Source: Lysobacterales bacterium PRO7
GTDB taxonomy: Bacteria > Pseudomonadota > Gammaproteobacteria > Xanthomonadales > Rhodanobacteraceae
Length of the DNA stretch: 64,000 bases
NCBI GenBank assembly: GCA_021404785.1
Contig: QWHH01000008.1
Span: forward strand, 62,001 to 126,000
Reading direction: 5' to 3'
The position numbers were made by a program, and so were the translations under genes. The notes under the pieces are model-generated. The model did no database searches. It was not told the origin of the DNA and was given only the letters and a program-made list of their open reading frames with translations. Positions 2,806 through 19,763 of this stretch are shown piece after piece. Within the stretch, counting starts at the first letter, position 1. Each line of letters opens with the position of its first letter.

Positions 2806-2863
2806 TTCCGCCTGACGGCGGATAGTTGTTATCCATATCAACATCTCGATAGAGGACAAAAAA

Positions 2864-3379: not shown

Positions 3380-3404
3380 TACCCGCAAGGGTTTGAATCC
3401 GGGG

Positions 3405-3441
3405 GCCGATCGGATGAAAATGCCGATCGGCTCTTTGTCTT
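3405..3441 (+). terminator. Hairpin plus T-rich run between pal and cpoB (partial terminator or attenuator)
   Basis: A perfect 9-bp stem pairs GCCGATCGG at 3405-3413 with CCGATCGGC at 3423-3431. The loop is 9 nt, and the run TCTTTGTCTTT follows directly. This has the shape of a rho-independent terminator, but the T-run is interrupted, so read-through into cpoB is likely. That would make it an attenuator setting Pal above CpoB. Function is inferred from shape only. Confidence 0.6.
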
Positions 3442-3460
3442 TATGAATCTGGAAATTCCG

Positions 3461-4359: not shown

Positions 4360-5019
4360 ATGTCCGAGACCGACCCGTCGGGACGGCTGCGCGTCACCGA
4401 GATTTTCCATTCCCTGCAGGGCGAGGCGCGCGACGCTGGCTGGCCGACGGTATTCGTGCGCCTGACCGGTTGTCCGTTGCGTTGCGTATGGTGTGATACC
4501 GAATACGCATTTCAGGGTGGGCAGTGGCGTGATATCGACGCCATCGTAGCAGAGGTCGCAAAGTATAAAACGCAGCATGTCTGCGTCACCGGCGGCGAAC
4601 CGCTGGCGCAGAAGCGGTGTTTGAATTTGCTCGTTGCGCTGTGCGACGCGGGCTATACGGTGTCGCTGGAAACCTCCGGCGCGCTCGATGTGAGCGACGT
4701 CGATCCCCGTGTGAGCCGCGTCATGGACCTGAAGGCACCCGGCTCCGGCGAATCCGCGCGCAACCTGTGGAGCAACCTCGACGCGCTGACCGCGCACGAC
4801 CAGATCAAGTTCGTGCTCGCCGATCGCGCCGATTACGATTGGGCCTGCGCGACGATGCGCGAACGCGCGCTTGCCGGACGCTGCGATGTGCTGTTTTCGC
4901 CGGTGTGGAGCAAACTCGCGCCGCGCGATCTTGCGCAGTGGATCCTCGACGACCGCCTGCCGGTGCGCATGCAGGTGCAGTTGCACAAGATCCTGTGGGG
5001 CGAGGAGCGCGGAAAGTGA
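4360..5019 (+). CDS. queE: QueE, 7-carboxy-7-deazaguanine synthase (radical SAM)
   Basis: QueE converts 6-carboxytetrahydropterin to 7-carboxy-7-deazaguanine in the queuosine tRNA-modification pathway. The radical-SAM cysteines are C38, C42 and C45 (C-P-L-R-C-V-W-C), preceded by the Q-G-E motif (20-22) typical of QueE. T-G-G-E-P follows in the SAM-binding region. Length (219 aa) is normal. It begins 5 bp after cpoB and overlaps queC by 4 bp (GTGA). The end of the tol operon therefore continues into queuosine synthesis, an arrangement common in gammaproteobacteria. Confidence 0.95.
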
Positions 5020-5798: not shown

Positions 5799-7589
5799 TC
5801 ACCCGAACTGCGCATCCGGCATCGCCATCAGCGAATCCGCGCCCGCGCGCAGGTTGGCGGCATGCGAAAGTGTACGCGGCAGGATGCGCGCATAGTAAAA
5901 CCGTGCGGTGGCAAGTTTGGATTGCTTGAAGTCGGAGGTTTGCGTCGACGCATCCGCAGCGGCGACGCTGCGCGCCCAGAAATAGGCGAGCGCGATATAG
6001 CCGGAATAAAACAGGTAATCCACGGCGCACACGCCAACCTCGTCGGGATTCGCCGCCGCGCGCTTGCCGATTTCCTGGGTCAAGTCCGCCCATTGCTTGG
6101 CGCTGGTGGCGAGCGGGGCGACGAATTCCTGCACCGCCGTATTCGCGATATTGGCCTGGCAGAACGCGCCGGTTTCCTCGAGGAAATGTTTCAGGCCGAC
6201 GCCTTGCGTCTGCATGATCTTGCGCCCAAGCAGGTCGAGGGCCTGGATGCCTGTCGTGCCTTCGTAGATCGTGGTGATGCGCGCGTCGCGCGCGAACTGC
6301 TCCATGCCTGTTTCGTGGATGTAGCCGTGACCGCCGAAAATCTGCACGGCGTGATAGGTGCATTCGTTCGCGGCTTCGGTGAGCAATGCCTTGGTGATCG
6401 GGATGATGAAGCTGAGCAGCTCATCCGCGCGTTTGCGTTCGTCCGGGGTTGGCGCGCGCTCGACCAGATCGACCAGGCTCGCGGCGTAATAGGCCAGTGC
6501 GCGACCGCCCTCGGCGAATGCTTTCTGCGTGAGCAGCATGCGGCGGATATCCGCATGCACGATCAGCGGGTCGGCGGGTTTGTCCGGAAACTTCGCGCCG
6601 CCCAGTGCGCGGCCCTGCAAGCGCTCGCGCGCGTACACGAGCGCACCTTGGTAGGCGCGCTCGATCAGGCCCAGCCCCTGGATACCGACCGCGAGGCGCG
6701 CGGTGTTCATCATGGTGAACATCGCATTCAGGCCCTTGTTCGGCTGGCCGATCAAGTAGCCTTCGGCGCCGTCGAAGTTCATCACGCAGGTGACGGAAGC
6801 GTGGATGCCCATCTTGTGTTCGATCGCGCCGCAACTCACCGCGTTGCGTGCGCCCATTTGTCCACTTTTGTCAACTTTATACTTCGGTACGATGAACAGC
6901 GAGATGCCTTTCACGCCGGCGGGCGCGTCGGGCAGGCGCGCCAGCACCAGATGCACGATGTTTTCGGTCAAATCGTGCTCGCCGGCGGTGATGAAGATCT
7001 TGGTGCCGGAAATGCGATAAGTGCCGTCCGGATTAGGTTCCGCGCGAGTCTTGAGCAGGCCCAGATCCGATCCGCAATGCGGTTCGGTCAGGCACATGGT
7101 GCCGGTCCAGCGGCCTTCGACGATGGGTTTGAGAAACGCAACGCGCTGCCATTCCTCGCCGTGCAGGCGCAGGGCTTCGGTGGCGCCGTGCGAGAGCAGC
7201 GGGAAATTGCCCCATGACAGGTTCGCCGAATCGAGCATTTCCTTCAGCGGTGCGCCGATCGATTCGGGCAGATGCTGGCCGCCGTAGGCTTCCGGCGCGG
7301 TCAGGCCGCTCCAACCGCCATCGACGTATTGCTTGTAGGCATCCTTGAACCCGGGCGGCGTCGTCACCGCGCCAGTCGTCTTGTCGTGCGTGCAACCTAG
7401 TTCATCGCCCGGCGCGTTCAGCGGCGCCAGAACGGTCTCGGAAAATTTCGCGGCCTCGTCGAGGATCGCATCGACCACGTCGCGCGTGGCGTTGGCGCCG
7501 CCATCGATGCGCGCGTACTGCGCGTCGAGCTTGAGCAGGTCGAACAGGACGAAGTGCATGTCCGCAAGCGGGGCTTTGTAGACGGTCAT
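5799..7589 (-). CDS. Acyl-CoA dehydrogenase of the large (about 600 aa, DmdC/FadE-like) type
   Basis: A 596-residue FAD-dependent acyl-CoA dehydrogenase. It opens with the short N-terminal helix Y-K-A-P-L-A-D-M-H-F found in 3-methylmercaptopropionyl-CoA-dehydrogenase-like enzymes. The middle domain has the flavin-binding M-C-L-T-E-P-H-C-G-S-D. The C-terminal catalytic domain contains Q-I-F-G-G-H-G-Y and Y-E-G-T-T-G-I-Q, followed by the extra C-terminal extension of this subfamily. The substrate cannot be read from sequence. The start at 7589 has a GAGGAA ribosome site. An upstream extension to 7694 is rejected because it would run through a repeat element. Confidence 0.9.
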   Translation of the reverse strand: MTVYKAPLADMHFVLFDLLKLDAQYARIDGGANATRDVVDAILDEAAKFSETVLAPLNAPGDELGCTHDKTTGAVTTPPGFKDAYKQYVDGGWSGLTAPEAYGGQHLPESIGAPLKEMLDSANLSWGNFPLLSHGATEALRLHGEEWQRVAFLKPIVEGRWTGTMCLTEPHCGSDLGLLKTRAEPNPDGTYRISGTKIFITAGEHDLTENIVHLVLARLPDAPAGVKGISLFIVPKYKVDKSGQMGARNAVSCGAIEHKMGIHASVTCVMNFDGAEGYLIGQPNKGLNAMFTMMNTARLAVGIQGLGLIERAYQGALVYARERLQGRALGGAKFPDKPADPLIVHADIRRMLLTQKAFAEGGRALAYYAASLVDLVERAPTPDERKRADELLSFIIPITKALLTEAANECTYHAVQIFGGHGYIHETGMEQFARDARITTIYEGTTGIQALDLLGRKIMQTQGVGLKHFLEETGAFCQANIANTAVQEFVAPLATSAKQWADLTQEIGKRAAANPDEVGVCAVDYLFYSGYIALAYFWARSVAAADASTQTSDFKQSKLATARFYYARILPRTLSHAANLRAGADSLMAMPDAQFG

Positions 7590-7722: not shown

Positions 7723-8184
7723 TCAGCGGTAGGAGTTGGCCACGCCGGGCACCGGCGACAGGCGGCTGCTGTGTTCGAACTTGAATTCCTTGGCCGATGG
7801 AATGTCTATCGTTCCCTTCAACTCGTAGGCCACGCCGTCCGGATGGGACACCGCACTCTTGAATGCCTTGGCGGCACCTGCGCCGGGCATCAGCGTGGTT
7901 TCGAGGATATCCGCGTTCTCGCCCGGGATATCCATGTTCGCATCGACATCGATCTTGCCGGCCGTTTCGTCGCCGACACGCAAGTCTGCCTTGAACGCGC
8001 CGTAGTGAACGGTCTGGTCACTGAAGTTCTCCAGCCGGACTTGCAGCTTCCATTGGCCGTCCGGCAACACGTCGAGTTGCTGGATGCTGGCGTTGGGCGG
8101 GTTGATCGGATGCTTGACCGGCCCGCAGGCGGCGAGTGCCGTGACCGTGGCGGCGAGCAGGAGGTAGCGCAGGGGATTCGGCAT
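7723..8184 (-). CDS. Small lipoprotein, LEA-type-2-like
   Basis: A 153-residue protein with a lipoprotein signal peptide (lipobox L-A-A-C at about residue 19). The beta-rich domain contains pattern N-A-S-I-Q-Q-L-D-V...W-K-L-Q-V-R-L-E-N-F-S, reminiscent of LEA type 2 / WHy domains found in bacterial stress-related lipoproteins. That family assignment is tentative. The ATG at 8184 is chosen over an in-frame GTG three codons upstream because GGTGAG lies at the right distance. Likely exposed at the periplasmic face of the outer membrane. Its specific role is unknown. Confidence 0.75.
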   Translation of the reverse strand: MPNPLRYLLLAATVTALAACGPVKHPINPPNASIQQLDVLPDGQWKLQVRLENFSDQTVHYGAFKADLRVGDETAGKIDVDANMDIPGENADILETTLMPGAGAAKAFKSAVSHPDGVAYELKGTIDIPSAKEFKFEHSSRLSPVPGVANSYR

Positions 8185-8259
8185 GACTCTCACCGTGGCT
8201 GGCGAAAGCCTACCTTAGCCAAAACGTGGTCACGGTGGAAGCGGCCGGGCGCCGCCGAT

Positions 8260-9159
8260 TCACGCGGCCTTCGCGGCCGGATGATCCACCTGCGTGTACT
8301 GCGCCGGTTTGCGGTCGAGGAAACCCAGGCCGTGGCAGTGGTTCATCACATGCACGCCGTGCGCGCGCTGTTCGTCGCGGATCGAATCGCGCAACTGGAT
8401 CATCTTCGTCCAATGCACTTTCGGGCGGTAGTGATGCTCGGCGTGGAATCCGTTGTACAGCCAGATCCAGTTGTAGAACTTGTTGTAGGTCGACACGCCC
8501 CAGGCGATGGGATCGTCCGGGTTGCCCTTGAAGTGCTCGTAATAGCCGTTCAGCGATGACAGCGAATGGCCGAGGTAATAGAACGGCACCAGCGCGAGAA
8601 AGGCGCGCCAGTCGAAGATCAGGCAAACCAGATAAATGCCGACGACGATATAGATTTCGCGCCAGATCCACTTCGCCTTTTCGGGGAATTTTTCCTTGAC
8701 CCGGCGGTAGACCTCGCCGATGTCGTCGCGGAAATAACTGTAAAAAGTATATGTCCACGGACTTTCGACCTTGCCGTCCTTGCCGTGGCGCCAGATCGAC
8801 AGCGGATCGATCGTGGTGCCGTTCGCGCCGATGCGATCCATGTTGCCGACATGATGGCGCAGGTGCACGTGGTGGTAGAACTCCTGCGAAAAACCATCGG
8901 TCAGCGACAGGATGATGCTGTAAACCCGGTTCAGCGTCGGTGAGCTGAAGAACGGGTTGTGGATGAAATTGTGACTGGTGGAGTTGATGCTCCACGAAAT
9001 GCTGATCGAATACACGAGCGCCAGCGGAATCCACAGCGCCCACGGCATGGCATGAAAGCCGAAGAACAAGGTGGCGACGAATACCAGATGTCCCAGCACC
9101 ATCAACGCGGGAATTGCATCCCACGGGGTGTAGGCGAAAAAGGCGGAACGGCTCGACAT
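8260..9159 (-). CDS. Membrane fatty acid desaturase
   Basis: A 299-residue di-iron membrane desaturase/hydroxylase-family protein. The three histidine boxes are H-N-F-I-H (63-67), H-H-V-H-L-R-H-H (96-103) and H-A-E-H-H (239-243). They are separated by hydrophobic segments at about 15-35, 42-60, 168-185 and 188-205. The order matches the fatty acid desaturase superfamily. Substrate and regiochemistry cannot be read from the sequence; other superfamily members act on carotenoids or alkanes. It diverges from the HAD phosphatase gene across about 120 bp that must hold both promoters. Confidence 0.85.
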   Translation of the reverse strand: MSSRSAFFAYTPWDAIPALMVLGHLVFVATLFFGFHAMPWALWIPLALVYSISISWSINSTSHNFIHNPFFSSPTLNRVYSIILSLTDGFSQEFYHHVHLRHHVGNMDRIGANGTTIDPLSIWRHGKDGKVESPWTYTFYSYFRDDIGEVYRRVKEKFPEKAKWIWREIYIVVGIYLVCLIFDWRAFLALVPFYYLGHSLSSLNGYYEHFKGNPDDPIAWGVSTYNKFYNWIWLYNGFHAEHHYRPKVHWTKMIQLRDSIRDEQRAHGVHVMNHCHGLGFLDRKPAQYTQVDHPAAKAA

Positions 9160-9281
9160 GCGCGCGCAGAACGACGAAAATAGGCGATGGCCGATTTTGC
9201 CAGAAAGCCGCTCGCGATACGTTAAAACCCCCTCAATTCAAACTGTTGCCGCTCAGGATTCCTTAATGCGCGGCGCCGATA

Positions 9282-9974
9282 ATGCCGCATTCCTCCATCC
9301 CGGGCGACCACTCCGTGTCCCACTGGACCATCCTCTGCGACTTCGACGGCACGATTGCCGTCGACGACACCACCGACACCCTGCTCGAACGCTTCGGCCG
9401 GTCCGGCTGGGAAGCGCTCGAAGCGGACTGGAAGGCCGGTCGCATCAACTCGCACGACTGCATGGCCGGACAAGTGGCACTACTGGACATGAGCCGCGAC
9501 GAGCTCGATGCGCACCTGGATGCGCGCGCCATTGATCCAGCTTTCGGTGAATTCGTCGATGCGGCGCACGCGCAGGGCATGCACATCGTGATTGTCAGCG
9601 ACGGGCTCGACTATGGGATCCGCCGCATTTTGGCGCGTGCCGGTTTCGAATCGCTGCCGATCGTCGCCAATCACCTGCGCCAGGTGGACGAGCGCGAGTG
9701 GTCGCTGCAATTCCCGCATGCCGATAAAGCCTGCCGCATCGGCAGTGGCACTTGCAAGTGCGCGCGTGGACGCGCCGCGCATGAGCGCACCCTGCTGATC
9801 GGCGATGGCGCATCGGATTTTTGCGTTGCCGAAACTGTCGATTTCGTTTTCGCCAAGGGCAAGTTGATCCAGCACTGCGAGAACAAGAACATCGCGCACG
9901 CGGCCATCGCCGGATTTGCCGATGCGTTGCCGCTGCTGCACGAACTGCCATCCAAGAAATTGGCCATCGCCTGA
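9282..9974 (+). CDS. HAD-IB phosphatase, MtnX/SerB-like
   Basis: A HAD-superfamily phosphatase of about 230 aa. Motif I is C-D-F-D-G-T with nucleophile D20 and acid/base D22. Motif II is I-V-S-D-G, and motif III is L-L-I-G-D-G-A-S-D. A Cys-rich insert (G-T-C-K-C-A-R-G) lies before motif III, as in MtnX-like enzymes. The start is uncertain: ATG 9282 has no clear ribosome site, and GTG 9315 would begin just before the conserved W-T-I-L-C-D-F-D. It is 19 bp upstream of a HemL-like aminotransferase, suggesting a two-gene operon. The substrate is unknown. Confidence 0.8.
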   Translation: MPHSSIPGDHSVSHWTILCDFDGTIAVDDTTDTLLERFGRSGWEALEADWKAGRINSHDCMAGQVALLDMSRDELDAHLDARAIDPAFGEFVDAAHAQGMHIVIVSDGLDYGIRRILARAGFESLPIVANHLRQVDEREWSLQFPHADKACRIGSGTCKCARGRAAHERTLLIGDGASDFCVAETVDFVFAKGKLIQHCENKNIAHAAIAGFADALPLLHELPSKKLAIA

Positions 9975-9993
9975 ATCACTCCCGAGAAACTCC

Positions 9994-11343
9994 ATGTCCG
10001 ACAAACAACTCGTCTCCGGCTTGAACACGAGCCGCAGCGCCAAATCATTCGAGGCTGCCTGCAAGCTCATCCCCGGCGGCGTCAACAGCACCGCGCGCGC
10101 GACCTGGGCAGGCTGGAATCCGTATCCGCTGTTCGTGAAAGACGGCACAGGTTCGCGCCTGACCGACGTCGATGGCAACGAGTACATCGACTATCTGTTG
10201 GGACTTGGCCCGATGATCTTCGGACACCGCCCGCCGAAAGTGACGCAGGCCGTAGTCGATTTCATCCAGAACCGCGGCACCGTGTTCGCGCTGCCGACCG
10301 AGGACGAAGCGCGCCTGGCACAGAAAATCGTCGACGCGATTCCGAGCGTGGACATGGTGCGCCTGTGCAACACCGGCACCGAGGCAGTGCTGTACGCGAC
10401 GCGCCTGGCGCGCGCCTTCACCAAGCGCCACAAGATCATCCGCTTCGAAGGCATGTACCACGGCTTCTCCGATGCCGTGTATTGGAGCAAGCATCCGAAT
10501 ATCTCGAAAGCCGGACCGGATGCGCACCCGATCCCGGTGCCGCAAGGCCCGGGCCTGCCCAAGGGCGTCGAAGAAAATCTCCTCATCCTGCCGTGGAACG
10601 ACGTCGATGCACTGGCCGATGCGATCAAACGCGAAGGCAACCACATCGCCGCCGTGCTGACCGAGCCGGTGATGTGCAACACCGGCTGCATCCTGCCCAA
10701 GCCGGGCTACCTCGAATTCATGCGCGAAATCACGCACAAGCACGGCATCGTGTTGATCTTCGACGAAGTCATCACCGGTTTCCGATTGGGACTAGCCGGT
10801 GCGCAAGGGCGCCTCGGCATCAAGCCGGATTTGTCCGTGTTCGCGAAGGGCATCGGCGGCGGCTTCCCGGTCGCGGCAATGGGCGGACGCGCGGACATCA
10901 TGTCCCTGGTCGCCAACGGCACGGTGTCGATGGCCGGCACCTACAGCGCGAACGGCATCGCGATCGCTGCGGCAAATGCGGCGATGGATGAACTCAACAC
11001 GCCGAATCTGCATAAGAATCTCGATGCTGTCTCAGACGAGTTGCGCCACGGACTCGAAAAAGTGTTGAAGGACGCCGGACTGCCCGCCTATGTCGTCGGC
11101 ATCGGTCCGCTTATGCAGGTCTGGTTCGCGCGCGAGGAAATCCACAACTATCGCGACGCCGAGCGCCACGCCGACCAGAAGATCTTCGACGTGTGGTGGC
11201 GCGGCATGCTCGCCTGTGGCGTGCTGTTCCATCCCGGCGCTTACGAAAACCTGTTCGTCTCGACCGCGCACACGCGTGAGGACATCGCGGCGACGCTGAA
11301 GGCAGCGAAGGAAGTGGCAGCGGAACTGGCGCGACAGGTTTGA
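9994..11343 (+). CDS. Class III PLP aminotransferase, HemL-like (possibly not the true HemL)
   Basis: A 449-residue class III aminotransferase in the glutamate-1-semialdehyde aminomutase branch. It shows I-P-G-G-V-N-S near the N-terminus, N-T-G-T-E for cofactor phosphate, D257 in I-F-D-E-V-I-T-G-F-R, and Schiff-base lysine K285 in F-A-K-G-I-G-G-G. The segment around M-C-N-T-G-C-I-L-P departs from the motif I expect in canonical HemL. The neighbour is a phosphatase rather than heme genes. I therefore call the family but not the reaction. The ATG at 9994 is chosen because it follows the phosphatase stop and gives a normal N-terminus. Confidence 0.75.
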   Translation: MSDKQLVSGLNTSRSAKSFEAACKLIPGGVNSTARATWAGWNPYPLFVKDGTGSRLTDVDGNEYIDYLLGLGPMIFGHRPPKVTQAVVDFIQNRGTVFALPTEDEARLAQKIVDAIPSVDMVRLCNTGTEAVLYATRLARAFTKRHKIIRFEGMYHGFSDAVYWSKHPNISKAGPDAHPIPVPQGPGLPKGVEENLLILPWNDVDALADAIKREGNHIAAVLTEPVMCNTGCILPKPGYLEFMREITHKHGIVLIFDEVITGFRLGLAGAQGRLGIKPDLSVFAKGIGGGFPVAAMGGRADIMSLVANGTVSMAGTYSANGIAIAAANAAMDELNTPNLHKNLDAVSDELRHGLEKVLKDAGLPAYVVGIGPLMQVWFAREEIHNYRDAERHADQKIFDVWWRGMLACGVLFHPGAYENLFVSTAHTREDIAATLKAAKEVAAELARQV

Positions 11344-11463
11344 GGGCAGGCAAACCGCGGCTGAACGCCGTGGCGATCGTCGTTCGCTATTAACCGGAAT
11401 TTGATGCGCCACGCGAGCGCATTTTCGAGAATGCACACTTCGTTCGTGAATGGAGTTGTGCGC

Positions 11464-12495
11464 ATGCGTGGTGCCGCCCTTGCCGGATTGTTCTTGTTGT
11501 CGTCGCTGGCCTGCGCTCAAAGCGCAACACCGCCTGCACAGTTGCAAACCATCACCGTCACCGGCGAGCAGCCGGGCCCGGGTTTGTGGAAAGTCTCCAA
11601 GGGCGATCATGTGCTGTGGATACTCGGCACCGTGTCGCCCTTGCCGCGCGATATTCAGTGGAAATCGAAAGAACTGGACGAGCGCATTGCGCAATCGCAG
11701 GAATTGCTGGCTGGCGAAGGAGTGGGACTGTCGGCGGACGCCGGTTTTTTCGGCACACTCGCGTTGCTGCCATCGCTGATCGGAGTCAAGAACAATCCGG
11801 ATGGCAAAACACTCGATCAGGTATTGCCGCCGGAACTTTACGAGCGCTGGGTCGCGGCCAAGCGCAAATACATCGGTCACAGCAATTGGGCCGAACGCCT
11901 GCGGCCGGTGTTTGCCGCGATCAAACTCTACGACGCGGCAATGGACGACAACCATCTCACCGGTTCGGACTTCGTGCGCAAGCAGGTGCGCAGCGATGCG
12001 CGGCGTGCGCATCTGGCCATCGTCACCGCGCAAGTCAACTACACGATCAAGAATCCGCGCGCGGCAGTGAAACGTTTCAAGGCCTCGCAGATTTCCGATG
12101 TCGGCTGTTTCAGCAAGACACTCGACAGCATCGATACGGACCTGGTCAACATGACCGCACGCGCCAATGCCTGGGCGGTTGGCGATATCGACGCCTTGCG
12201 CAAGCTGCCGCGATCCGATCAGTGGAACGTGTGCACGCAGGAGGTATCCGAATCAGGCATCGCGCATGAATTGGGATTGAGCGATGCCGCCGCGCGACTG
12301 CGCGCGGCCTGGCTCGATGAAGCCAAAAAGGCTCTGGACAAAAACGCATCGACGGTAGCAGTAGTGTCCATGCGCAGCCTGCTCGATCCAAACGGCAAGC
12401 TGGCGCAACTCAAGGCGCTGGGTTACACGATCAAGGCACCGGATGGGGATACCACGGACCAAGAAGTCAGCCAGACTGCGACGGTGCTGCCATAA
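11464..12495 (+). CDS. TraB/GumN family secreted protein
   Basis: A 343-residue protein with a signal peptide (hydrophobic run to A-C-A-Q-S at about residue 20). The TraB/GumN fold begins at G-D-H-V-L-W-I-L-G-T. In many TraB-family proteins the next positions form G-T-x-H; here they are G-T-V-S-P-L-P, so that histidine is absent. This wording recalls the GumN branch encoded at the end of xanthan clusters, but no gum genes are near. The ATG at 11464 has GGAG eight bases upstream. In-frame ATGs at 11401 and 11431 would bury the signal peptide. Function unknown. Confidence 0.8.
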   Translation: MRGAALAGLFLLSSLACAQSATPPAQLQTITVTGEQPGPGLWKVSKGDHVLWILGTVSPLPRDIQWKSKELDERIAQSQELLAGEGVGLSADAGFFGTLALLPSLIGVKNNPDGKTLDQVLPPELYERWVAAKRKYIGHSNWAERLRPVFAAIKLYDAAMDDNHLTGSDFVRKQVRSDARRAHLAIVTAQVNYTIKNPRAAVKRFKASQISDVGCFSKTLDSIDTDLVNMTARANAWAVGDIDALRKLPRSDQWNVCTQEVSESGIAHELGLSDAAARLRAAWLDEAKKALDKNASTVAVVSMRSLLDPNGKLAQLKALGYTIKAPDGDTTDQEVSQTATVLP

Positions 12496-12501
12496 GACGA
12501 T

Positions 12502-13377
12502 TCATTCCACGCGAATCGTGCCTTCGATCACCGTGCGCGTACGCCCGCCGACCCAGACCGTTCCGTCGGCGTCGATGCGCGCGGTCAGCGCGGCATCGTG
12601 GCCCATCTCGCGGCCCTGGCTGACACGGTAGCCGCGCGCGCGCGATCCAGAAGGCTCGGCTTGCGCGATGTAGGCGGCGATGAGTCCGTTCGCGGCGCCG
12701 GAAGCCGGATCCTCGACGATGCCCGCGCCGGCGGGGAAAGCGCGCACCACGAGTTCGTAATCCGGATTCCTGCAGCGCGCGAACACGCATAAACCCATGC
12801 AAGCGTCGGCGCGCGCGAGCGCCTTGATCGCGGCGTGATTGGGTTGCCACGAACGCACCGCACCCTCATCCGCGAACTCGGCGATCCACCAACGTCGGCC
12901 GCCATCGACCAGCGCGGGCGCCAACGCACCGAAAGCCTGGAATCCGAGCGCGGCGCGCAGGGACGCATCCTCACCGCCCTCGCGCGCGACGCGCGCGCCG
13001 GGCGCGCGCACGAAAAGTTCGCGCGATGCGCCTTCGCCTTCGACGCGGATCGGCAGCAGACCCGCGCCGCATTGCTGGATCAGTTGGCCGTCACGCGCTT
13101 GCGCGAAACCGGAATCGAGCACGGCATGCGCGCTGCCGATGGTCGGGTGTCCGGCGAACGGGATCTCCGTGTGCGGCATGAAGATGCGCAGGCGGTAATC
13201 CGCGTTCGCATCGTCCGGCGGCAGCACGAATGTGGTTTCCACGATATTGAGCCAGCGCGCGATGCGCTGCATTTGCGCGGTATCGAGTTCGGGGGAGGCG
13301 AACACGACGCCAAGCGGATTGCCGCCGCCGGGCGAGGCGGGGAAGACGTCGAGCTGGAGGTAACGAAAAGAAGGCAT
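12502..13377 (-). CDS. PhzF-like isomerase/epimerase
   Basis: A 291-residue protein of the PhzF/diaminopimelate-epimerase-fold family. It has the diagnostic start L-D-V-F-P and G-G-N-P-L-G (about residues 9-23), and the catalytic-type glutamate E47 in I-V-E-T-T-F. Further motifs are M-P-H-T-E-I-P-F-A-G-H-P-T-I-G and, near the C-terminus, D-P-A-S-G-A-A-N-G. PhzF itself isomerises a phenazine precursor; most homologues have unknown substrates and no other phenazine genes are present. It lies 7 bp downstream of the ketosynthase on the same strand and is probably the last gene of the 18.6-12.5 kb run. Confidence 0.88.
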   Translation of the reverse strand: MPSFRYLQLDVFPASPGGGNPLGVVFASPELDTAQMQRIARWLNIVETTFVLPPDDANADYRLRIFMPHTEIPFAGHPTIGSAHAVLDSGFAQARDGQLIQQCGAGLLPIRVEGEGASRELFVRAPGARVAREGGEDASLRAALGFQAFGALAPALVDGGRRWWIAEFADEGAVRSWQPNHAAIKALARADACMGLCVFARCRNPDYELVVRAFPAGAGIVEDPASGAANGLIAAYIAQAEPSGSRARGYRVSQGREMGHDAALTARIDADGTVWVGGRTRTVIEGTIRVE

Positions 13378-13384
13378 GCGCGCG

Positions 13385-14596
13385 TCAAGCGGCGCGCAAG
13401 GCGATCACGCAATTGAGTCCGCCGAACGCGAACGAGTTGCTCAGCGCCGCACGCACGGATTTTTTCCGCGCCGTATTCGGCACGTAATCGAGATCGCATT
13501 CGGGATCGGCGTCGATGAAATTCGCGGTCGGCGGAACCACGCCGTCGCGCATCGAACCGATGGCGGCGACGAGTTCGATTGCACCGGCTGCGCCGAGTGC
13601 GTGACCGTGCATGGATTTGGTCGAGGACACGGCGAGTTTGTCGGCATGCGCGCCGAACGCGCGGCGGATTGCCTTGGTCTCGGTCGGATCGTTCGCCGGC
13701 GTGCCGGTGCCATGGGCGTTGATGTAATCGACGTCCTCGGGTTTGAGCTTGGCGTCGGCAAGCGCAAGTTCCATCGCGCGCGCGACCGTGGCCTGCGCCG
13801 GGAATACCATATCGACGGCATCCGCGGTCATGCCGCTGCCGGCGAATTCGGCAAGGATGTTCGCGCCACGCGCCTTGGCATGTTCCCATTCCTCGAGCAC
13901 GAAGATGCCGGCGCCTTCGCCCAGCACCATGCCACGGCGCTGTTTGCAGAACGGACGGCAGGTGTCGTCGGCGGTGACGCGCATGGCTTCCCATGCCTTC
14001 ATCGTGGTGACGGTGACGCAGGCTTCGCTGCCGCCGGTCACGGCGAAATCCATTTTTCCATTTTTTATCATGTCCGCCGCTTGCGCCATCGCGTGGTTGG
14101 CCGAGGCGCAGGCGCTGACCACGGCGAAGCTCGGGCCGCGCAACCCGAACTCGATGCCGACGTGGCAGGCCGGTGCGTTTGCCATGACGCGCAGGATGGT
14201 GAGCGGATGCAGGCGCGGATTGTTTTCGGCGTAGAAGCGTCTGGACTGCTCATTGTGCGAACCTTCGCCGCCAATGCCGCTGCCGATGATGCAGGCGCTG
14301 CGTTCGCCGCGATTGTCCACACGAAAATCGAGACCCGATTGCGCGACGGCCTCGCGCGCGGCGACCAGCGCGAATTGCGATACGCGGTCGAGAAGCGGCA
14401 GTTTCTTCGTGTCGATATGCGTGGCCGGGTCGAAGCCGCGCACTTCCGCCGCAATCTTGACGTTGAGCAGGTCGGTCGGGATGTTGGCGATCGGCCCGAT
14501 GCCAGAGCGCCCCTCGCGCATCGCCGCCCAGGTCGATGCGGCATCGTGGCCGAGCGCGGTAATCGCGCCCATGCCGGTGATGGCGACGCGGCGCAT
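13385..14596 (-). CDS. Beta-ketoacyl-ACP synthase II-type (FabF-like ketosynthase)
   Basis: A 403-residue condensing enzyme with the full catalytic triad: C163 (S-A-C-A-S-A-N-H), H295 (N-A-H-G-T-G-T) and H332 (S-M-H-G-H-A-L-G-A-A-G). It is an elongation-type FabF-family ketosynthase. It is 7 bp downstream of its own acyl carrier protein and is not surrounded by fabD/fabG. A dedicated pathway is therefore more likely than housekeeping fatty-acid synthesis. The start at 14596 avoids overlap with the ACP gene. An upstream in-frame start at 14641 lies inside that gene. Confidence 0.88.
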   Translation of the reverse strand: MRRVAITGMGAITALGHDAASTWAAMREGRSGIGPIANIPTDLLNVKIAAEVRGFDPATHIDTKKLPLLDRVSQFALVAAREAVAQSGLDFRVDNRGERSACIIGSGIGGEGSHNEQSRRFYAENNPRLHPLTILRVMANAPACHVGIEFGLRGPSFAVVSACASANHAMAQAADMIKNGKMDFAVTGGSEACVTVTTMKAWEAMRVTADDTCRPFCKQRRGMVLGEGAGIFVLEEWEHAKARGANILAEFAGSGMTADAVDMVFPAQATVARAMELALADAKLKPEDVDYINAHGTGTPANDPTETKAIRRAFGAHADKLAVSSTKSMHGHALGAAGAIELVAAIGSMRDGVVPPTANFIDADPECDLDYVPNTARKKSVRAALSNSFAFGGLNCVIALRAA

Positions 14597-14603
14597 CGGG
14601 GAA

Positions 14604-14870
14604 TTAACCTGCGGCGGTTGGCTGCGCGGCTTTTTCCGCAACGAGCTTTTCCACCGCGTCGATCAAGCCCTTGACCGATTCGGTGTCGAAGTTCGGGTCG
14701 CGATCGGGCATCTGGATCTTGTAGTGATCCTCGATCTCGAAAATGATCTGCACCGCATCCAGCGACTGGATGTTGAGGTCCTTCAGCGTGGAATCAGGCT
14801 TGATCGTGGCGATGTCGATGCCGGCTTCCTTGGCGATGATGCCGAAAACCGTGTCCTGTACTTCGCTCAT
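14604..14870 (-). CDS. Acyl carrier protein (dedicated, atypical attachment motif)
   Basis: An 88-residue carrier protein: four-helix ACP pattern with the phosphopantetheine serine at S36 in N-I-Q-S-L-D-A-V-Q. Housekeeping ACPs have D-S-L-D with an aspartate before the serine; here it is Gln. Acidic helix II (I-I-F-E-I-E-D) is retained. The start has a strong site (GGAGAGAG, 2 bp from ATG). It is directly before the ketosynthase, so the two proteins probably act together in modifying or extending a dedicated acyl chain. Confidence 0.9.
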   Translation of the reverse strand: MSEVQDTVFGIIAKEAGIDIATIKPDSTLKDLNIQSLDAVQIIFEIEDHYKIQMPDRDPNFDTESVKGLIDAVEKLVAEKAAQPTAAG

Positions 14871-14910
14871 GGCTCTCTCCGAAATGCGCTGAAGATTGAA
14901 GGTGCGTAGC

Positions 14911-15306
14911 TTAACCTGCGCCGGATTCGGCGTCATCCGAACCCAGTGCCAGAATTCCCGCCACGATGATCGTGCAGCCAACCATTTGCCAGAATCCAAT
15001 GCGCTCGCCGAACACAAGCCACGAGGCGAGCATGACGCCGACGAAGACGATCGCGCTGGTCGTGAACGCGGCCGACAGCGTGGTCTTGCGCAGGATCGTC
15101 ATCCACACGCCGAATGCCCCGATGTAGCAGGCGATCGCGACCCAGGTCCACGGCGTAGCCAGGGTGCGCGCAAACGCGGTCGGAGAGAAATTGAAATCCG
15201 GATTGTCCAGCCCTGACATCTTGAGCGAGATCTGGCACAGCGTCTCGAACCCGAGCAGCATCAGCCAGGCGACCCAGGCGCCGCGGAGGACGTGGTTGCT
15301 GTTCAT
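14911..15306 (-). CDS. Half-size EamA/SMR-type membrane transporter (second of two)
   Basis: A 131-residue, four-helix membrane protein: hydrophobic segments at about 10-30, 55-75, 78-100 and 104-122. The W-M-T-I-L-R-K-T-T-L-S-A-A-F motif and a C-terminal G-x-x-I-I-V-A-G-I-L-A-L helix are typical of EamA/ArnE-like half transporters, which function as dimers. The ATG overlaps the stop of the upstream acyltransferase by 4 bp (ATGA). With the similar gene at 17354-17722 it could form a heterodimeric flippase like ArnE/ArnF. The cargo is unknown. Confidence 0.8.
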   Translation of the reverse strand: MNSNHVLRGAWVAWLMLLGFETLCQISLKMSGLDNPDFNFSPTAFARTLATPWTWVAIACYIGAFGVWMTILRKTTLSAAFTTSAIVFVGVMLASWLVFGERIGFWQMVGCTIIVAGILALGSDDAESGAG

Positions 15307-16439
15307 CGTGCGGAATCCTCGATCAGTGCGGCCAGTTCCGGATCCTGCCGGTCGAGGCGCGCGATGCGCTCGACCAGGGCAAAGAGCGCATCCACGAAGC
15401 GGTTGCGATGCCGGTACCACAGCCAGTTTGCGGACAGGCGGCTGCCAAGACGGCGCTTGAGCGCGTGCAGGCCCTGGCCGCTCTGGTACAAGGCGAGTTT
15501 CAGGTCGATGCAGCGGCGCACGTTCTCGATCCAGGTGTAGAAGTATAAATTGTGTTCGCGGGCCACGGTGTAATCCATGCCGAGGAACTTGTCGAGCAGG
15601 CGTTTGCCGTCGTGCAGGACGAGATTGAATGCGACGAGTTTGTCGCCAAGCCAGTACGTGGCGCAATTCGCGCGCCCAGCCATCCCGCGCAGCACGTTGC
15701 GGAAATATTCGCTCGTGAGTTCCTCGAAACTGAATTGCGCGTTCGCGTGCGTGGATTTGTACAGGCGCATGACTTCGCCTTCGATGCCGTCGATGCCGGT
15801 GCGCCATTCGACGCGCAATCCCGTCGCATCCTTCAATTTGCGGCGGATGTCCTTGCGCGTTGCCTTGCTGAGCGTTGCCAGGTATTCGTCGATGTTCGCG
15901 AACTTCACGTCCAGGAACGCGGTCGGCAAGCCCGGCTGGCGGCGCAATCCGTGCGCCTTTGCCGCCGCCGCCCACAGTGCATCCTGGGCGGCGGTTGCGT
16001 CCTTGACCGCAATCATGCGCACGCGGTTTTCCCTGGCGAAGGATTCCGCCTTCGCGAGGATGGCCCCGAGCAGGCGTTGTTGTTCGTCCGCTGGCACGCC
16101 GGGTGCAAAGCCGAGGTGGCAAATCTCCGAAACCGGCGAGCCCAGCGACAACATCTTCTGGCGCAACAGGCGCGGGAAATGGCGGGTAACCCAATCGGCA
16201 AAGCGCTTGAGCGCGCCGGTCAGCGTCGTGTCGAGACGATAAACCGTGACGAAGGCCGGCACCGCGACACGCAGCAAACCGGCTTCATCGCGCACGCCGA
16301 AGTACAGCCAGGAAAAGTCCGGCAGGCCGGATTTCTCGACCGCGCGGTAGTAGCTCCAGTCTTCGAGCTCGTCCGGAAACAGCCGGTTCCATTCCTCGCG
16401 GCCGAAGGCCTCGATGGAATCGACGACGACGGCTTCCAT
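15303..16439 (-). CDS. FemAB-type GNAT acyltransferase (Acetyltransf_6-like)
   Basis: A 378-residue protein with the two-lobed GNAT organisation of FemAB-like/CelD-like acyltransferases. The N-terminal half contains W-S-Y-Y-R-A-V-E-K. The C-terminal half has K-A-T-R-K-D-I-R-R-K-L-K, T-Y-W-L-G-D-K-L-V-A-F-N-L and K-F-L-G-M-D-Y. This class transfers amino-acyl or acyl groups onto cell-wall, lipid or small-molecule amines. The donor could be the ACP two genes downstream, but that is inference. It overlaps its neighbours on both sides by 1-4 bp, so it is translationally coupled in the operon. Confidence 0.75.
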   Translation of the reverse strand: MEAVVVDSIEAFGREEWNRLFPDELEDWSYYRAVEKSGLPDFSWLYFGVRDEAGLLRVAVPAFVTVYRLDTTLTGALKRFADWVTRHFPRLLRQKMLSLGSPVSEICHLGFAPGVPADEQQRLLGAILAKAESFARENRVRMIAVKDATAAQDALWAAAAKAHGLRRQPGLPTAFLDVKFANIDEYLATLSKATRKDIRRKLKDATGLRVEWRTGIDGIEGEVMRLYKSTHANAQFSFEELTSEYFRNVLRGMAGRANCATYWLGDKLVAFNLVLHDGKRLLDKFLGMDYTVAREHNLYFYTWIENVRRCIDLKLALYQSGQGLHALKRRLGSRLSANWLWYRHRNRFVDALFALVERIARLDRQDPELAALIEDSAR

Positions 16440-17299
16440 CAATCGGCGACGGCGAGGGCAGGCGCCGGTTCCGGCATGGTGACGAATTGCGTGGCGGCGA
16501 CCTGGTTGAAGAAGCGCGTGGTGCGGTCGATGACGAGGTTGCGTTCCTGGTCGACGGTGATCATGTGGTAGCTGTTTTCCAGCAGCACGGTCTCGACCGG
16601 GCCCTTGACGCCGCGCACCAGCACCTGCACGTTGCGCAGGCTGGCGACGTCGTCTTCCTTGGCGTGCATCACCAGGCACGGCGTGCGCACGTCTGGCAGC
16701 ATGCGACGCACGCGCCACGACAGGCGGTAGAACTCGGCGAGCGAAGGCCACGGATTGCCGGGCAGTCCGCCGGCGGCGCTGTCGCCGGACAACATGCTGC
16801 CGGCAATGCGCTGACGGATGCGCTCGTCCTTGATGCCATAGGGGAAGCACTCGTGGAATTTTTGCCCGCGGCCGAACCCCAGGCTCACCACCAGCGGCAG
16901 CATGAACGACAACTTGCCGATCCAAGGGATCGTCCAGCCGTCGTAGGCAAAGGTGGTGCCGTACAGGCCCAGGCCATCAACCATCTCGGGCCGGTCGGCG
17001 GCGAGCTTGAGCGCAAGCAGGGCGCCCATCGACAGGCCGGCCACGAACAGGTGGTCGACCTCGCCGCGCAGTTTTTCGGCAGCCGCGACCACGCTGCGAT
17101 ACCAGTCCTGGCGGCCGGTCGCGAGCAGGTCTGCTTCGTCGCCGCAGTGGCCGGCGAGCTGCATGCCGTGGACGGTAAAACCGTTGCGGTTCAGGCCCTT
17201 GCCGATGAAACGCATCTCGGTCGGCGTGCCGGTCAGACCGTGGATCAGGAGTACGCCGTTGCGGCCGCCGGGCATGTGGAATTCAACGTTCTTGATCAT
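16439..17299 (-). CDS. Alpha/beta hydrolase, carboxylesterase/monoacylglycerol-lipase-like
   Basis: A 286-residue serine hydrolase. The oxyanion segment is L-L-I-H-G-L-T-G-T. The nucleophile elbow is G-L-S-M-G with S90. Candidate acid and base are the Asp of H-A-K-E-D-D and the His of E-N-S-Y-H-M-I near residue 255. The arrangement resembles Est30/YvaK-type carboxylesterases acting on short or medium acyl esters or thioesters. In this operon it could act as an editing or release thioesterase for ACP-bound intermediates. Its stop overlaps the acyltransferase start (ATGA-type). Confidence 0.82.
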   Translation of the reverse strand: MIKNVEFHMPGGRNGVLLIHGLTGTPTEMRFIGKGLNRNGFTVHGMQLAGHCGDEADLLATGRQDWYRSVVAAAEKLRGEVDHLFVAGLSMGALLALKLAADRPEMVDGLGLYGTTFAYDGWTIPWIGKLSFMLPLVVSLGFGRGQKFHECFPYGIKDERIRQRIAGSMLSGDSAAGGLPGNPWPSLAEFYRLSWRVRRMLPDVRTPCLVMHAKEDDVASLRNVQVLVRGVKGPVETVLLENSYHMITVDQERNLVIDRTTRFFNQVAATQFVTMPEPAPALAVAD

Positions 17300-17353
17300 G
17301 GAAATATCCGGGATTCTGCCAACAATTATCCGGCTTGCCGGTTTACAAATACC

Positions 17354-17722
17354 TTAAATTCCCGGCCAGCAGGCCAGGGCCACGCCGAACGCCACCGCGC
17401 CCGTCGCCAGCCACCGCCGCCTGGAAACATGCTCGCCCAGGATGAAACGGCTGGCGATCACGACACCGCAGTAGGACAGCGCCATGAATGGATAGGCGAC
17501 GCTCAACCGCGTCATGCTCAGCGCCGCGAACCACAGCGTGATCTCGACCACGTAAACCAGGATCCCGGCGATGATCCAGGGTGACACGAGCAGCCCGCCG
17601 AAGAATCCGCGCAACCCGCTCGCGGGCGCTGGCGCGGACTCGTGGCCAACGCCAAGCTTGAAGCAGACCTGGCCGCCGACATCGCACAGCACGGTGCCAA
17701 GCAGCAAAGCCAGAAGCATCAT
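17354..17722 (-). CDS. Half-size EamA/SMR-type membrane transporter (first of two)
   Basis: A 122-residue protein with four predicted membrane helices (about 1-20, 42-62, 66-90, 104-120). Features of ArnE/EmrE-like half transporters are D-V-G-G-Q-V-C-F-K in helix 1 and L-S-V-A-Y-P-F-M-A-L-S-Y in helix 3. Two adjacent ATGs occur (17722 and 17719); the first overlaps the stop of the arginase-like gene. A 54-bp gap to the hydrolase contains CCGGC-AA-GCCGG and AT-rich sequence, so an internal promoter cannot be excluded. It probably pairs with the 14911-15306 product. Confidence 0.78.
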   Translation of the reverse strand: MMLLALLLGTVLCDVGGQVCFKLGVGHESAPAPASGLRGFFGGLLVSPWIIAGILVYVVEITLWFAALSMTRLSVAYPFMALSYCGVVIASRFILGEHVSRRRWLATGAVAFGVALACWPGI

Positions 17723-18636
17723 CGCGCGGCCTTTTCGATCGCCACCAGCAATAGCCTGTTCGTCGCCTCGTTGCGTGCCAGCATCGCCGTATCCGCGCTG
17801 CGCTGCGGCTGATCGCTGCGCGATTCCCAGCGCTTGAACCAGTTCGTGTGCGCAATCGGGGAAAACTCGCCGCAGATGTCCGCGCCGGCGATGCGCTTTT
17901 GCGCACCGACGGCACGAAGGATTTGCAGCAGAGCCGACAGTGGCATGCGACCTTGATCCCAGTTCGTCAGTGCCTCGCGCTCGTCGAGCACGTCCTTGTC
18001 GATGCTGATCCACACCGCATTGGTCGAAATCAACGAAATTATAGCATCCAGCGTATTCTCGACGCCCGTTTCGGAGAAGTTTTGCCAATGGATATGGCCA
18101 TTTTCCCAATGCCGGCCTGGACCATCAGGTATCCGCCGCCAGACCCGTGACGGCGCGTGCTCCCACGGGAAAAGCAAGAGTCTGCCGCTGGCCAGGGCGG
18201 GCAGGTTGCCGCCCTTCAGATCCGGACGCACCAGATCGTCGCTGCACACGCCAAGTGTGATCACGCGCTGCACGTTGGGTAGCCGCAATGCCCGATTGAC
18301 CCACGAACCGCAGTGCCAGCGCGGCGCCAGGCGTACCCAGTCCGGATGGTTGTCGATATGGATGACCGTGACGGGCTCGCGGGCCTTTTCCATCAACACG
18401 GCGGCCAGATGATGAAAATCGCCGGAACCGATCAGGTGCAGGGTAGGCCCGTCCGGCGCCTGCGCGGCAATGCGCTCGCGCGCGAGGCGGATCGTGCGAT
18501 CGCGGCTCCACAGGCGTAAGCGTGGCCCGAGATCGCGCAAATCGACGGCAGAAACGGATTCCCATAGCGCGACCGTGCGCAGCGTGAATTGCTGCGTGTC
18601 GAGGGATCCATCGAGGTCAAGGAATTGAAGATGCAT
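17719..18636 (-). CDS. Arginase-fold (ureohydrolase-like) metalloprotein
   Basis: A 305-residue protein showing the binuclear-metal signature of the arginase/deacetylase fold. It has G-S-G-D-F-H-H (H75/H76), I-H-I-D-N-H-P-D-W (D95, H97, D99) and S-I-D-K-D-V-L-D (D213, D215), with downstream G-A-D-I-C-G-E-F (E257). Apparent metal ligands are intact, so it is likely catalytic. The sequence is far from free-arginine arginases. The H-x-D-x-H-P-D...G-S-W-V-N layout reminded me of UPF0489-type proteins, some of which are peptide arginases; that is uncertain. The ATG at 18636 is preferred over a TTG two codons upstream. Confidence 0.75.
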   Translation of the reverse strand: MHLQFLDLDGSLDTQQFTLRTVALWESVSAVDLRDLGPRLRLWSRDRTIRLARERIAAQAPDGPTLHLIGSGDFHHLAAVLMEKAREPVTVIHIDNHPDWVRLAPRWHCGSWVNRALRLPNVQRVITLGVCSDDLVRPDLKGGNLPALASGRLLLFPWEHAPSRVWRRIPDGPGRHWENGHIHWQNFSETGVENTLDAIISLISTNAVWISIDKDVLDEREALTNWDQGRMPLSALLQILRAVGAQKRIAGADICGEFSPIAHTNWFKRWESRSDQPQRSADTAMLARNEATNRLLLVAIEKAAR

Positions 18637-18679
18637 CCGCAAATGCTAACGCATTCGCAGGTGCAGCCGAACGCCAGGT

Positions 18680-19663
18680 TCAGGCGTTACTGCGAACCAT
18701 TTGTGACACGCCGTCGGCGTTCTTGCGGCGTGTCGGCATCGCCGAATCCTCGATGCCGATGATCGTGGCGAACAGGTCGCGGGTGAAGACGGCATTGCCG
18801 AAGTACCAGGAGTGGCTTTGCGCGCCGGCGATGCCGCCGGGTTGGTCTCGTTTCATCACGGCCGGATCCGAGATCAGTTGCGCGTAATAGTCGCTGCAAT
18901 CGACTTCGATCGCGTTCGTTGGCGCGTCGTCTGGCAAACCAATCCGGCCCACGCGTGGCGCGACCCCGAGGCGCTTGACGTTGGAGATGTCCAGCACTGC
19001 ATCATGGCGGTTGGAATAGTTGGTCAGGCGCAAGCAATGGTTGAAGACGGATGCAGCACTGGGATTGCCGGCGCTCATCGACGCCGAAGAAATGTCGCCG
19101 GCCGCGAACAGGATCTGGCTGACCGTCCAGCCCTGCTGCTTGAGCGTGGTGTCGTCGGCGTCGTCGAAGGCCTCGCGCACCACGTAGGCGCCGGTCGAAT
19201 GGCACAGCAGGTGGATGTTGATCGCGCAATCTGGCTTTTGCCGCGCGCTCAATGCGGCGATCCCGTCAGTCACCAGCTTGAGCGCGGTCTTCTTGGCGCG
19301 ATGGCGGTCGGCGAGATACGCCAGTGCCTGGTCGTCGCTCGGCCAGTCGAAGGAGACGACCACGCCCCTGAAGCCTAGCGCCATAAGGCCGGATTTCACG
19401 ACGCGATGGTGCTGCATCACATCCGCCTCGGAACTGTTGTAGCCATGCACGACGAACAGCAGGTCGCCGCGCGCCTGGCCTTGCGCATTGGTCCACGCCG
19501 CAGCCGCCTGGACGGCGTTGTACCAAGCCGACGCGCCGATGGTTTGATCCGGGCTCACGCCGGCACCGGCGGGCACCTGCAGGAATCGCGTCGCGCCGAC
19601 ATCGGCGACAAAGGCGCCGCCGCTCACCGCACGCACGGACAAGACGTAATCGACATCGCCCAT
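18680..19663 (-). CDS. Alpha/beta hydrolase of the DUF900-like type
   Basis: A 327-residue protein with a predicted serine-hydrolase core. It contains L-F-V-V-H-G-Y-N-S-S (oxyanion region), V-V-S-F-D-W-P-S and the nucleophile elbow L-C-H-S-T-G-A-Y, a variant of G-x-S-x-G with Cys first. This pattern matches the DUF900 alpha/beta hydrolases. No signal peptide is seen at the chosen start. ATG 19663 has GGAG eight bases upstream; an upstream ORF extension to 19747 lacks one. It lies 43 bp upstream of the arginase-like gene on the same strand and may be cotranscribed. Function unknown. Confidence 0.75.
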   Translation of the reverse strand: MGDVDYVLSVRAVSGGAFVADVGATRFLQVPAGAGVSPDQTIGASAWYNAVQAAAAWTNAQGQARGDLLFVVHGYNSSEADVMQHHRVVKSGLMALGFRGVVVSFDWPSDDQALAYLADRHRAKKTALKLVTDGIAALSARQKPDCAINIHLLCHSTGAYVVREAFDDADDTTLKQQGWTVSQILFAAGDISSASMSAGNPSAASVFNHCLRLTNYSNRHDAVLDISNVKRLGVAPRVGRIGLPDDAPTNAIEVDCSDYYAQLISDPAVMKRDQPGGIAGAQSHSWYFGNAVFTRDLFATIIGIEDSAMPTRRKNADGVSQMVRSNA

Positions 19664-19763
19664 GGTGATATCTCCGGACAGTCCGTGCGGAAACATACTC
19701 CAAAATCCGCTCGCGGCTATGCGCCGAAGCGCACGATTCGCTTTCAATATCGAGAGGGGAAAA

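Follow-up and report, generated by a model that had tools for sequence, protein, structure and literature searches.

The genome of Lysobacterales bacterium PRO7 (2.8 Mb, 19 contigs) carries, at positions 8260–18636 of the 64 kb stretch analyzed here (the window), a locus for which we see an even chance that it is a copy of a proteobacterial module making and exporting a fatty N-acyl amine, a product of the aminolipid type. The larger part of this locus consists of eight minus-strand genes (12502–18636) which had been described in an initial annotation as an operon combining an acyl carrier protein (ACP) and a ketosynthase (KS) with an acyltransferase, an arginase-fold enzyme, and paired half-transporters. 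All eight genes were confirmed. Genes for a HAD phosphatase, an aminotransferase (AT), and a desaturase, which are located beyond those for a PhzF-family and a TraB-family protein and also belong to the locus, had been overlooked. The constant partners of the module are the AT, the GNAT-type acyltransferase, and the arginase-like hydrolase, followed by the HAD phosphatase, an alpha/beta hydrolase (ABH), and the two half-size EamA proteins. Its variable partners (ACP and KS, desaturase, cyclopropane synthase) work on acyl chains. Taken together, the constant and the variable set suggest as the product an N-acylated amine bearing a fatty chain, which would be moved by the EamA pair.

Lack of co-conservation had been set beforehand as one of the points on which the proposal could fail. 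The genes do co-occur, across Xanthomonadales, Pseudomonas, and plasmid-borne loci. Among 299 Xanthomonadales genomes, 75 have a match to the arginase-like protein, and each of these 75 also has a match to the GNAT (E ≤ 3e-21), which is found in 15 further genomes at E ≤ 1e-8. For the other 74 genomes, regions surrounding the arginase-like gene were read over at most 20 kb; none of them repeats another, and some are cut short by contig ends. Encoded in these regions are the GNAT (74), the ABH (57), the second EamA protein (55), the KS and the ACP (54 each), a DegT protein (54), the AT and the HAD phosphatase (53 each), the desaturase (2), and an AT of the glutamate-1-semialdehyde (GSA) type (1). 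The arginase-like and GNAT genes are adjacent in 71 of the 74 regions (scored by eye).

The AT subfamily is present in 79 of the 299 genomes, namely in 70 of the 75 with an arginase-like match and in 9 of the 224 without one (Fisher p ~1e-51, uncorrected for kinship, a value which overstates the strength of the association because genomes from a single order are not independent samples). The better argument is provided by those cases where the genes are unlinked. In 17 of the 70 genomes the AT is encoded outside the region read: 10–13 kb from it in three (G012, G150, G210), on the same contig but more than 100 kb distant in five (G039, G125, G245, G273, G295), and on another contig in nine (G046, G085, G189, G218, G236, G246, G267, G280, G293). 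The latter 14 genomes make the link between the arginase-like protein and the AT independent of mere adjacency. Five genomes with an arginase-like match are devoid of this AT subfamily (G000, G053, G269, G279, G281), and a GSA-type AT is encoded near the locus in G000 and G279.

Beyond the order, a scan of named genomes returned at least 551 confirmed relatives, and the best 80, including 58 from Pseudomonas, were retrieved. These 58 loci were mapped; the 49 which are longer than 18 kb were counted and nine shorter ones were dropped (L071 and L115, which are not from Pseudomonas, are outside this set). The arginase-like protein, both EamA proteins, the HAD phosphatase, the AT, the ABH, and the GNAT are encoded in 49 of 49 loci and the desaturase in 14, with two locus pairs being near-identical at the DNA level. 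On annotated plasmids, 52 records matched; of the 14 regions which were read, 12 carry the module. The arginase-like protein, the GNAT, and the AT are encoded in all 12 of these, and the HAD phosphatase, the ABH, and EamA in 11. In Parabacteroides and Eubacterium eligens, only remote arginase-family matches were obtained (module in 0 of 2).

The gene order HAD-AT-arginase-like-EamA-(desaturase)-ABH-GNAT-EamA is found on plasmids of Agrobacterium, Rhizobium, Sinorhizobium, and Phyllobacterium, and variants of it on plasmids of Aureimonas, Roseomonas, Xanthomonas sacchari, and a Bartonella from a bat. In Rhizobium, Sinorhizobium, and Phyllobacterium, the operon includes the desaturase gene, and a cyclopropane synthase family gene is present in Rhizobium and Phyllobacterium. 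The smallest set (AT, GNAT, and arginase-like protein only) is that of the plasmid from the bat isolate Bartonella sp. HY406 (L195), where a gene for an MBOAT O-acyltransferase is located nearby. Of eight regions from a sample of the phylum, five carry the genes for the arginase-like protein, GNAT, AT, HAD phosphatase, ABH, and EamA, two (L217, L221) are ended by the contig, and one (L223) carries only those for GNAT, arginase-like protein, and EamA. The module also occurs in soil, plant, and skin bacteria. The proposal of a pathway of its own kind has to be adjusted accordingly: the module is spread over several proteobacterial groups and is not private to this lineage.

The nearest loci among the best 80 are from metagenome assemblies labelled Proteobacteria, Lysobacteraceae, Rhodanobacteraceae, and Rudaea. 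Of the 23 close relatives mapped, 22 are distinct (L060 is the same DNA as L022), and 12 of these retain the order arginase-like-EamA-ABH-GNAT-EamA-ACP-KS. Five of the other ten run off contig ends (L041, L043, L044, L051, L054). The AT was seen in seven and the HAD phosphatase in five of the 12 full-order relatives, the contigs of which often end first. The locus L028 (14176–19998) encodes an ACP and a KS with 81% and 71% sequence identity to those of the window and a GSA-type AT with 85%, next to an arginase-like protein and a GNAT of another subfamily. This mosaic suggests an exchange of parts between module types.

All eight open reading frames of the presumed operon are open at 12502–18636, and the family names given in the initial annotation agree with the Pfam matches of all eight proteins. 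The close packing was borne out. The genes for the arginase-like protein and the first EamA protein overlap by 4 bases, those for ABH and GNAT by 1, and those for GNAT and the second EamA protein by 4, while gaps of 7 bases flank the KS gene on both sides. Wider gaps of 54 and 40 bases separate EamA-1 from ABH and EamA-2 from ACP. Promoter- and terminator-like sites within 8100–18800 do not exceed the count expected by chance and thus give no proof of a single transcript.

We propose the following route. The class-III AT would aminate a small keto or aldehyde precursor, which is probably phosphorylated, and the HAD phosphatase would take off the phosphate. The GNAT would then couple the resulting amine with an acyl chain. 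In PRO7, this chain would be borne by the dedicated ACP and elongated by the dedicated KS together with housekeeping fatty-acid enzymes; in other lineages the chain would be drawn from the general acyl pool. The desaturase, and likewise the cyclopropane synthase in Rhizobium, may tailor the chain. The arginase-fold hydrolase is predicted to cleave a C–N bond of the head group (guanidine, amidine, or amide), either before or after acylation, and the ABH to edit an ester or thioester. Both half-size EamA proteins would jointly act as a flippase which brings the product to the outer leaflet. Attachment of the chain to the amine by the GNAT and export through the EamA pair had already been proposed, and both were backed as the probable logic, given that the acyltransferase is of the FemAB/GNAT type and that the half-size EamA proteins travel together.

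The AT (9994–11343, plus strand) is a pyridoxal phosphate-dependent enzyme of class III (PF00202, 226.9 bits, vs. only 24 bits for PF00155) which resembles GSA aminomutase. It was rejected as HemL, scoring below the cut-off of the hemL model TIGR00713 (441.8 vs. 527.3 bits) while another copy in the genome passes with 636. It shows 70–71% sequence identity to the AT from the clusters of Aureimonas and two Roseomonas, which is annotated as GSA aminomutase in two of these three clusters. The phosphatase gene (9282–9974, plus strand) codes for an MtnX-like HAD-IB protein which exceeds the cut-off of TIGR01489 (96.3 vs. 81.55 bits) and falls short of that of the mtnX equivalog model (81.4 vs. 303.2 bits). 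A succession of AT and HAD phosphatase is also encountered in the routes to serine, histidinol, and serinol, and an amino-alcohol head group is our first guess for this reason, followed by one of the arginine type. The arginase-like enzyme had initially been taken to make or trim the amine. The metal ligands of that enzyme are indeed kept, but AT and HAD phosphatase are the likelier amine makers, to which the arginase-like enzyme would be added as a third participant.

The arginase-like protein (17719–18636, minus strand) represents a divergent subfamily of the binuclear-metal hydrolases with arginase fold. Its score of 37.8 bits with Pfam Arginase (PF00491) is above the cut-off of 22, compared to 256 bits for the regular arginase-family member of this genome; no NCBIfam model matched at E ≤ 0.01. 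The motifs GSGD[FY]HH, DNHPD, HCGSW, DKD, and NWDQG occur in this order. Residues H75, H76, D95, H97, D99, D213, and D215 are invariant in 25 diverse rows of the alignment and H108, which we take to be the proton-shuttle His of arginase, is found in at least 90% of them. The ligands of the binuclear metal center (H, DxHxD, DxD) are thus present, and the motifs align to agmatinase and arginase chains in a profile alignment. The signatures GGDH and D[AS]HxD, which we take to be the classical ones, were not found; GSGD[FY]HH and DNHPD are in their place. In the E. eligens region (L201), a different arginase-family protein is encoded at 5974–6747; its gene immediately follows those for PlsX and for fatty-acid synthesis.

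The GNAT (15303–16439, minus strand) matches FemAB_like (PF04339, 48.1 bits) and Acetyltransf_6 (PF13480, 43 bits). No other Pfam match was obtained at E ≤ 0.01 and no NCBIfam match at the thresholds used. Pairwise distances of the arginase-like protein and the GNAT correlate with r = 0.978 over 80 loci, whereas the corresponding values for these two proteins are 0.876 and 0.841 with the HAD phosphatase and 0.569 and 0.563 with the AT; as the comparison covers these module proteins only, this correlation is no more than suggestive. Among the four proteins, the mean distance is smallest for the AT (0.27), the set of which includes some rows of the GSA type. A second GNAT-like gene (34% identity) lies between the two EamA genes in the Pseudomonas loci L082 and L083.

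The first EamA protein (17354–17722, minus strand) has 122 residues and the second (14911–15306, minus strand) has 131; both exceed the Pfam EamA cut-off of 28.2 (31.5 and 30.5 bits, respectively). The ABH (16439–17299, minus strand) is assigned to Hydrolase_4, and the nearest solved structures are of the monoacylglycerol lipase, LipS, and Est30 type. The ACP (14604–14870, minus strand) matches PF00550 (PP-binding, 37.7 bits). The KS (13385–14596, minus strand) matches the Pfam ketoacyl-synthase family and is FabF-like. It scores 464.6 bits with the fabF model TIGR03150, which is below the cut-off of 493.75, while the other FabF of the genome scores 658.6. What we take to be its Cys-His-His motif is readable in the translation. 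A housekeeping ACP/KS pair is encoded on another contig (ACP at G000:C6:94285). The initial suggestion that the chain is made on its own ACP probably holds for PRO7, the locus of which does have a second such pair. As part of the module core, ACP and KS were not sustained: although present in 54 of the 74 Xanthomonadales regions, they are matched in none of the 49 Pseudomonas loci. The pair is a lineage-specific addition to the module.

The desaturase family protein (8260–9159, minus strand, divergent from the HAD phosphatase and AT genes; PF00487, 82.4 bits) shows 50–52% sequence identity to the desaturase encoded inside the Rhizobium, Sinorhizobium, and Phyllobacterium operons. The PhzF-family isomerase (12502–13377, minus strand; PF02567, PhzC-PhzF, 180.8 bits), which had been considered a tailoring or releasing enzyme, proved to be an accessory protein, peripheral to the module. 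Its gene follows that of the KS in three of the 12 full-order relatives (L042, L045, L046) and was found in none of the 74 Xanthomonadales regions, the 49 Pseudomonas loci, and the 12 plasmid regions with the module.

In part of the relatives, the module is adjoined by genes for a sensor kinase and a sigma-54 regulator, namely in Aureimonas, two Roseomonas, L222, L224, and six of the six named Pseudomonas loci tested. Matches are full-length, with 31–41% (sensor kinase) and 51–62% (regulator) sequence identity between genera; the kinase of R. gilardii is annotated in pieces. This count leaves out partial matches which cover a single kinase or receiver domain. Other response regulators are encoded upstream of the module in rhizobia.

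Several observations weigh against an N-acyl amine module as proposed. Gene content, order, and co-occurrence, protein families, catalytic residues readable from the sequence, and the link to lipid-modifying genes were observed, whereas reactions and product are predicted. A single-sequence search with the GNAT returned no PDB relative (best profile match E 0.2). The function predicted for this protein is that of an acyl-ACP- or acyl-CoA-dependent N-acyltransferase acting on a free amine. The bond cut by the arginase-like protein is a guess because this protein departs from the classical motifs. The module is patchily distributed, with matches in 16 of the 398 genomes sampled from the phylum and, using an older profile, in 3 of 369 genomes of a class sample. 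The arginase-like and GNAT genes occur without any other queried gene in two genomes from the same genus (L027, L040) and only with the desaturase in five of the nearest loci (L048, L050, L052, L055, L059; TraB in one of them, and the L050 locus just 4.2 kb long). Conversely, the AT is found without an arginase-like match in nine genomes (G060, G140, G174, G225, G230, G240, G248, G285, G297). Queries with the sensor/sigma-54 pair gave no match in the window, nor did they in 13 of 24 relatives. Finally, the DegT genes and an undecaprenyl-diphosphate phosphatase gene near the module in two Roseomonas point to a sugar or polyprenyl carrier.

This last point would fit an Arn-like envelope modification, where an amino or acyl-amino group is placed on a sugar or polyprenyl carrier, flipped by the EamA pair, and ends on lipopolysaccharide or a surface polymer. 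MipA/OmpV genes, which neighbor the module in Agrobacterium larrymoorei, Sinorhizobium, Phyllobacterium, and Rhizobium leguminosarum and, for Pseudomonas, in one locus that was checked, could be accommodated as well, as could the weak matches of the EamA halves to the ArnE and ArnF models. The scores of these matches are only about one third of the cut-offs, the DegT protein of L026 scores 75.9 vs. 631 with the ArnB model, and the annotation of the 12 plasmid operons shows neither a glycosyltransferase nor a nucleotide-sugar enzyme within them. DegT itself, the family to which ArnB belongs, is unmatched in the 49 Pseudomonas loci and in close relatives and did not turn up among the scanned genes of the window. 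We thus consider such a modification quite improbable. That the eight genes are mere neighbors without a common pathway, which the operon of the window by itself could not exclude, is hardly credible in view of the co-occurrence in Xanthomonadales, Pseudomonas, rhizobia, and Roseomonas with varied orders and strands, and of the 14 genomes with a distant AT gene.

The same chemistry could also yield a soluble N-acylated small molecule (a signal, a toxin, or a metallophore-like compound) which leaves the cell via TolC/HlyD/ABC proteins or via EamA and exerts its effect outside. Genes for HlyD, an ABC ATPase, and TolC are indeed found beside the module in X. sacchari, and TolC-ABC-adaptor genes on two Agrobacterium plasmids, and the patchy spread would be in line with this product (of the 52 plasmid records, at least five are remote, outside the groups of the module). 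On the other hand, the annotation of the 12 plasmid regions (for which the gene table is incomplete) shows no adenylation enzyme, nonribosomal peptide synthetase, or large polyketide synthase next to the module, and the small EamA pairs, the desaturase, and the cyclopropane synthase fit a membrane lipid, which makes a soluble product rather unlikely. A route from arginine or agmatine, in which the GNAT acylates, the arginase-like protein removes urea, and the AT oxidizes or installs the end amine, would result in an N-acyl ornithine or N-acyl diamine. It is a special case of the N-acyl amine module proposed here, so that the probabilities of the two overlap, and taken for itself it is unlikely. 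The ureohydrolase ligands are kept, AT families of the acetylornithine, GABA, and GSA type act on end amines, and the arginase-like protein and the GNAT are encoded side by side in most regions and show the strongest distance correlation. Against this route, the position of the classical glutamate is shifted, with D in some rows, and the HAD phosphatase has no clear place.

Further genes surround the module genes in the window. Between the AT and PhzF genes, a TraB/GumN-family protein is encoded at 11401–12495, convergent with the operon. A TraB/GumN-like gene (40% identity) also follows the arginase-like and GNAT genes in L048, and membership of TraB in the module is uncertain. Directly upstream of the arginase-like gene is that for a DUF900 alpha/beta hydrolase (18680–19747, minus strand), which has no match in the 74 Xanthomonadales regions. 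At 599–4354, the window carries Tol-Pal genes (TonB/TolA C-terminus, TolB, OmpA/Pal, TolA-binding TPR protein), which are followed by a radical SAM gene (4360–5019). The only Rfam matches in the window and in eight relatives are tRNAs; no guanidine riboswitch was found there, and control by a riboswitch or another RNA was rejected on this basis. An anti-phage role was likewise rejected, a PADLOC search with four of the proteins having returned no match.

If the proposed function is correct, a new class of lipids or acyl amines, a new acyltransferase family, and a new activity of the arginase fold are to be expected, and the labels "arginase," "GNAT," and "glutamate-1-semialdehyde aminomutase" would have to be corrected in many genomes. 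The module is present in bacteria which are easily grown (Pseudomonas protegens, the P. fluorescens group, Rhizobium, Agrobacterium, Roseomonas mucosa). Going further, we tentatively envisage a new class of regulated envelope aminolipid, made by a non-OlsB FemAB/GNAT enzyme, edited in its head group by an arginase-fold protein, flipped by a two-subunit EamA flippase, controlled in one branch by the sensor/sigma-54 pair, and tailored in its chain by lineage-own means (ACP-KS, desaturase, cyclopropane synthase). We regard this extended proposal as possible, though doubtful as a whole.

N-acyl amino acid and N-acyl serinol synthases perform GNAT-type N-acylation of a small amine, in the case of serinol with an aminotransferase partner, and the module would resemble them in this predicted chemistry. 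An open-access literature search on serinol enzymes returned no pathway with this set of genes. More generally, the initial annotation had named no described pathway with this set, and no description of the gene set was found in the open-access literature searched (titles, term counts, and starts of abstracts).

The resemblance to established systems is partial in each case, and in the respective tests the locus failed to qualify as an OlsB, Arn, or ceramide pathway. The fold family and the aligned metal-ligand motifs are shared with the ureohydrolases (arginase, agmatinase, guanidinopropionase, proclavaminate amidinohydrolase), from which the locus protein differs by GD[FY]HH with an extra residue instead of GGDH, by DNHPD in the place of DxHxD, by a Lys in the middle of the last DxD, and by its weak profile match. 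ArnE/ArnF and SMR-type transporters likewise have two EamA halves of about 120–130 residues encoded in one operon. With the ArnF and ArnE models, however, EamA-1 scores 32.5 and 31 bits and EamA-2 29.9 and 31.4 bits, compared to cut-offs of 99 and 92, and the window scan revealed no other arn-type gene. Serine palmitoyltransferase of bacterial ceramide and sphingolipid synthesis, an alpha-oxoamine synthase-type enzyme with a class I/II fold, was not found, the AT of the locus being of class III.

The N-acyltransferases of ornithine, glutamine, and glycine lipid synthesis (OlsBA, GluB, GlsB) join an acyl chain, often from acyl-ACP, to an amine and, for the OlsB type, carry Pfam 13444, according to a review (PMC11631085) the main text of which uses neither the word arginase nor the word aminotransferase. 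Joining a chain to an amine is what the GNAT of the locus would have in common with them. It differs by matching PF13480 and PF04339 and not Pfam 13444, and no OlsA/PlsC-type gene is found among the window genes scanned or in the annotation of the 12 plasmid operons. The synthesis of an N-acyl amine coupled to its export is of a known kind. The enzyme set, with an AT, a phosphatase, and an arginase-fold protein as extra partners compared to the OlsB type, had no description in the open-access literature searched and distinguishes the module from those systems which it resembles.

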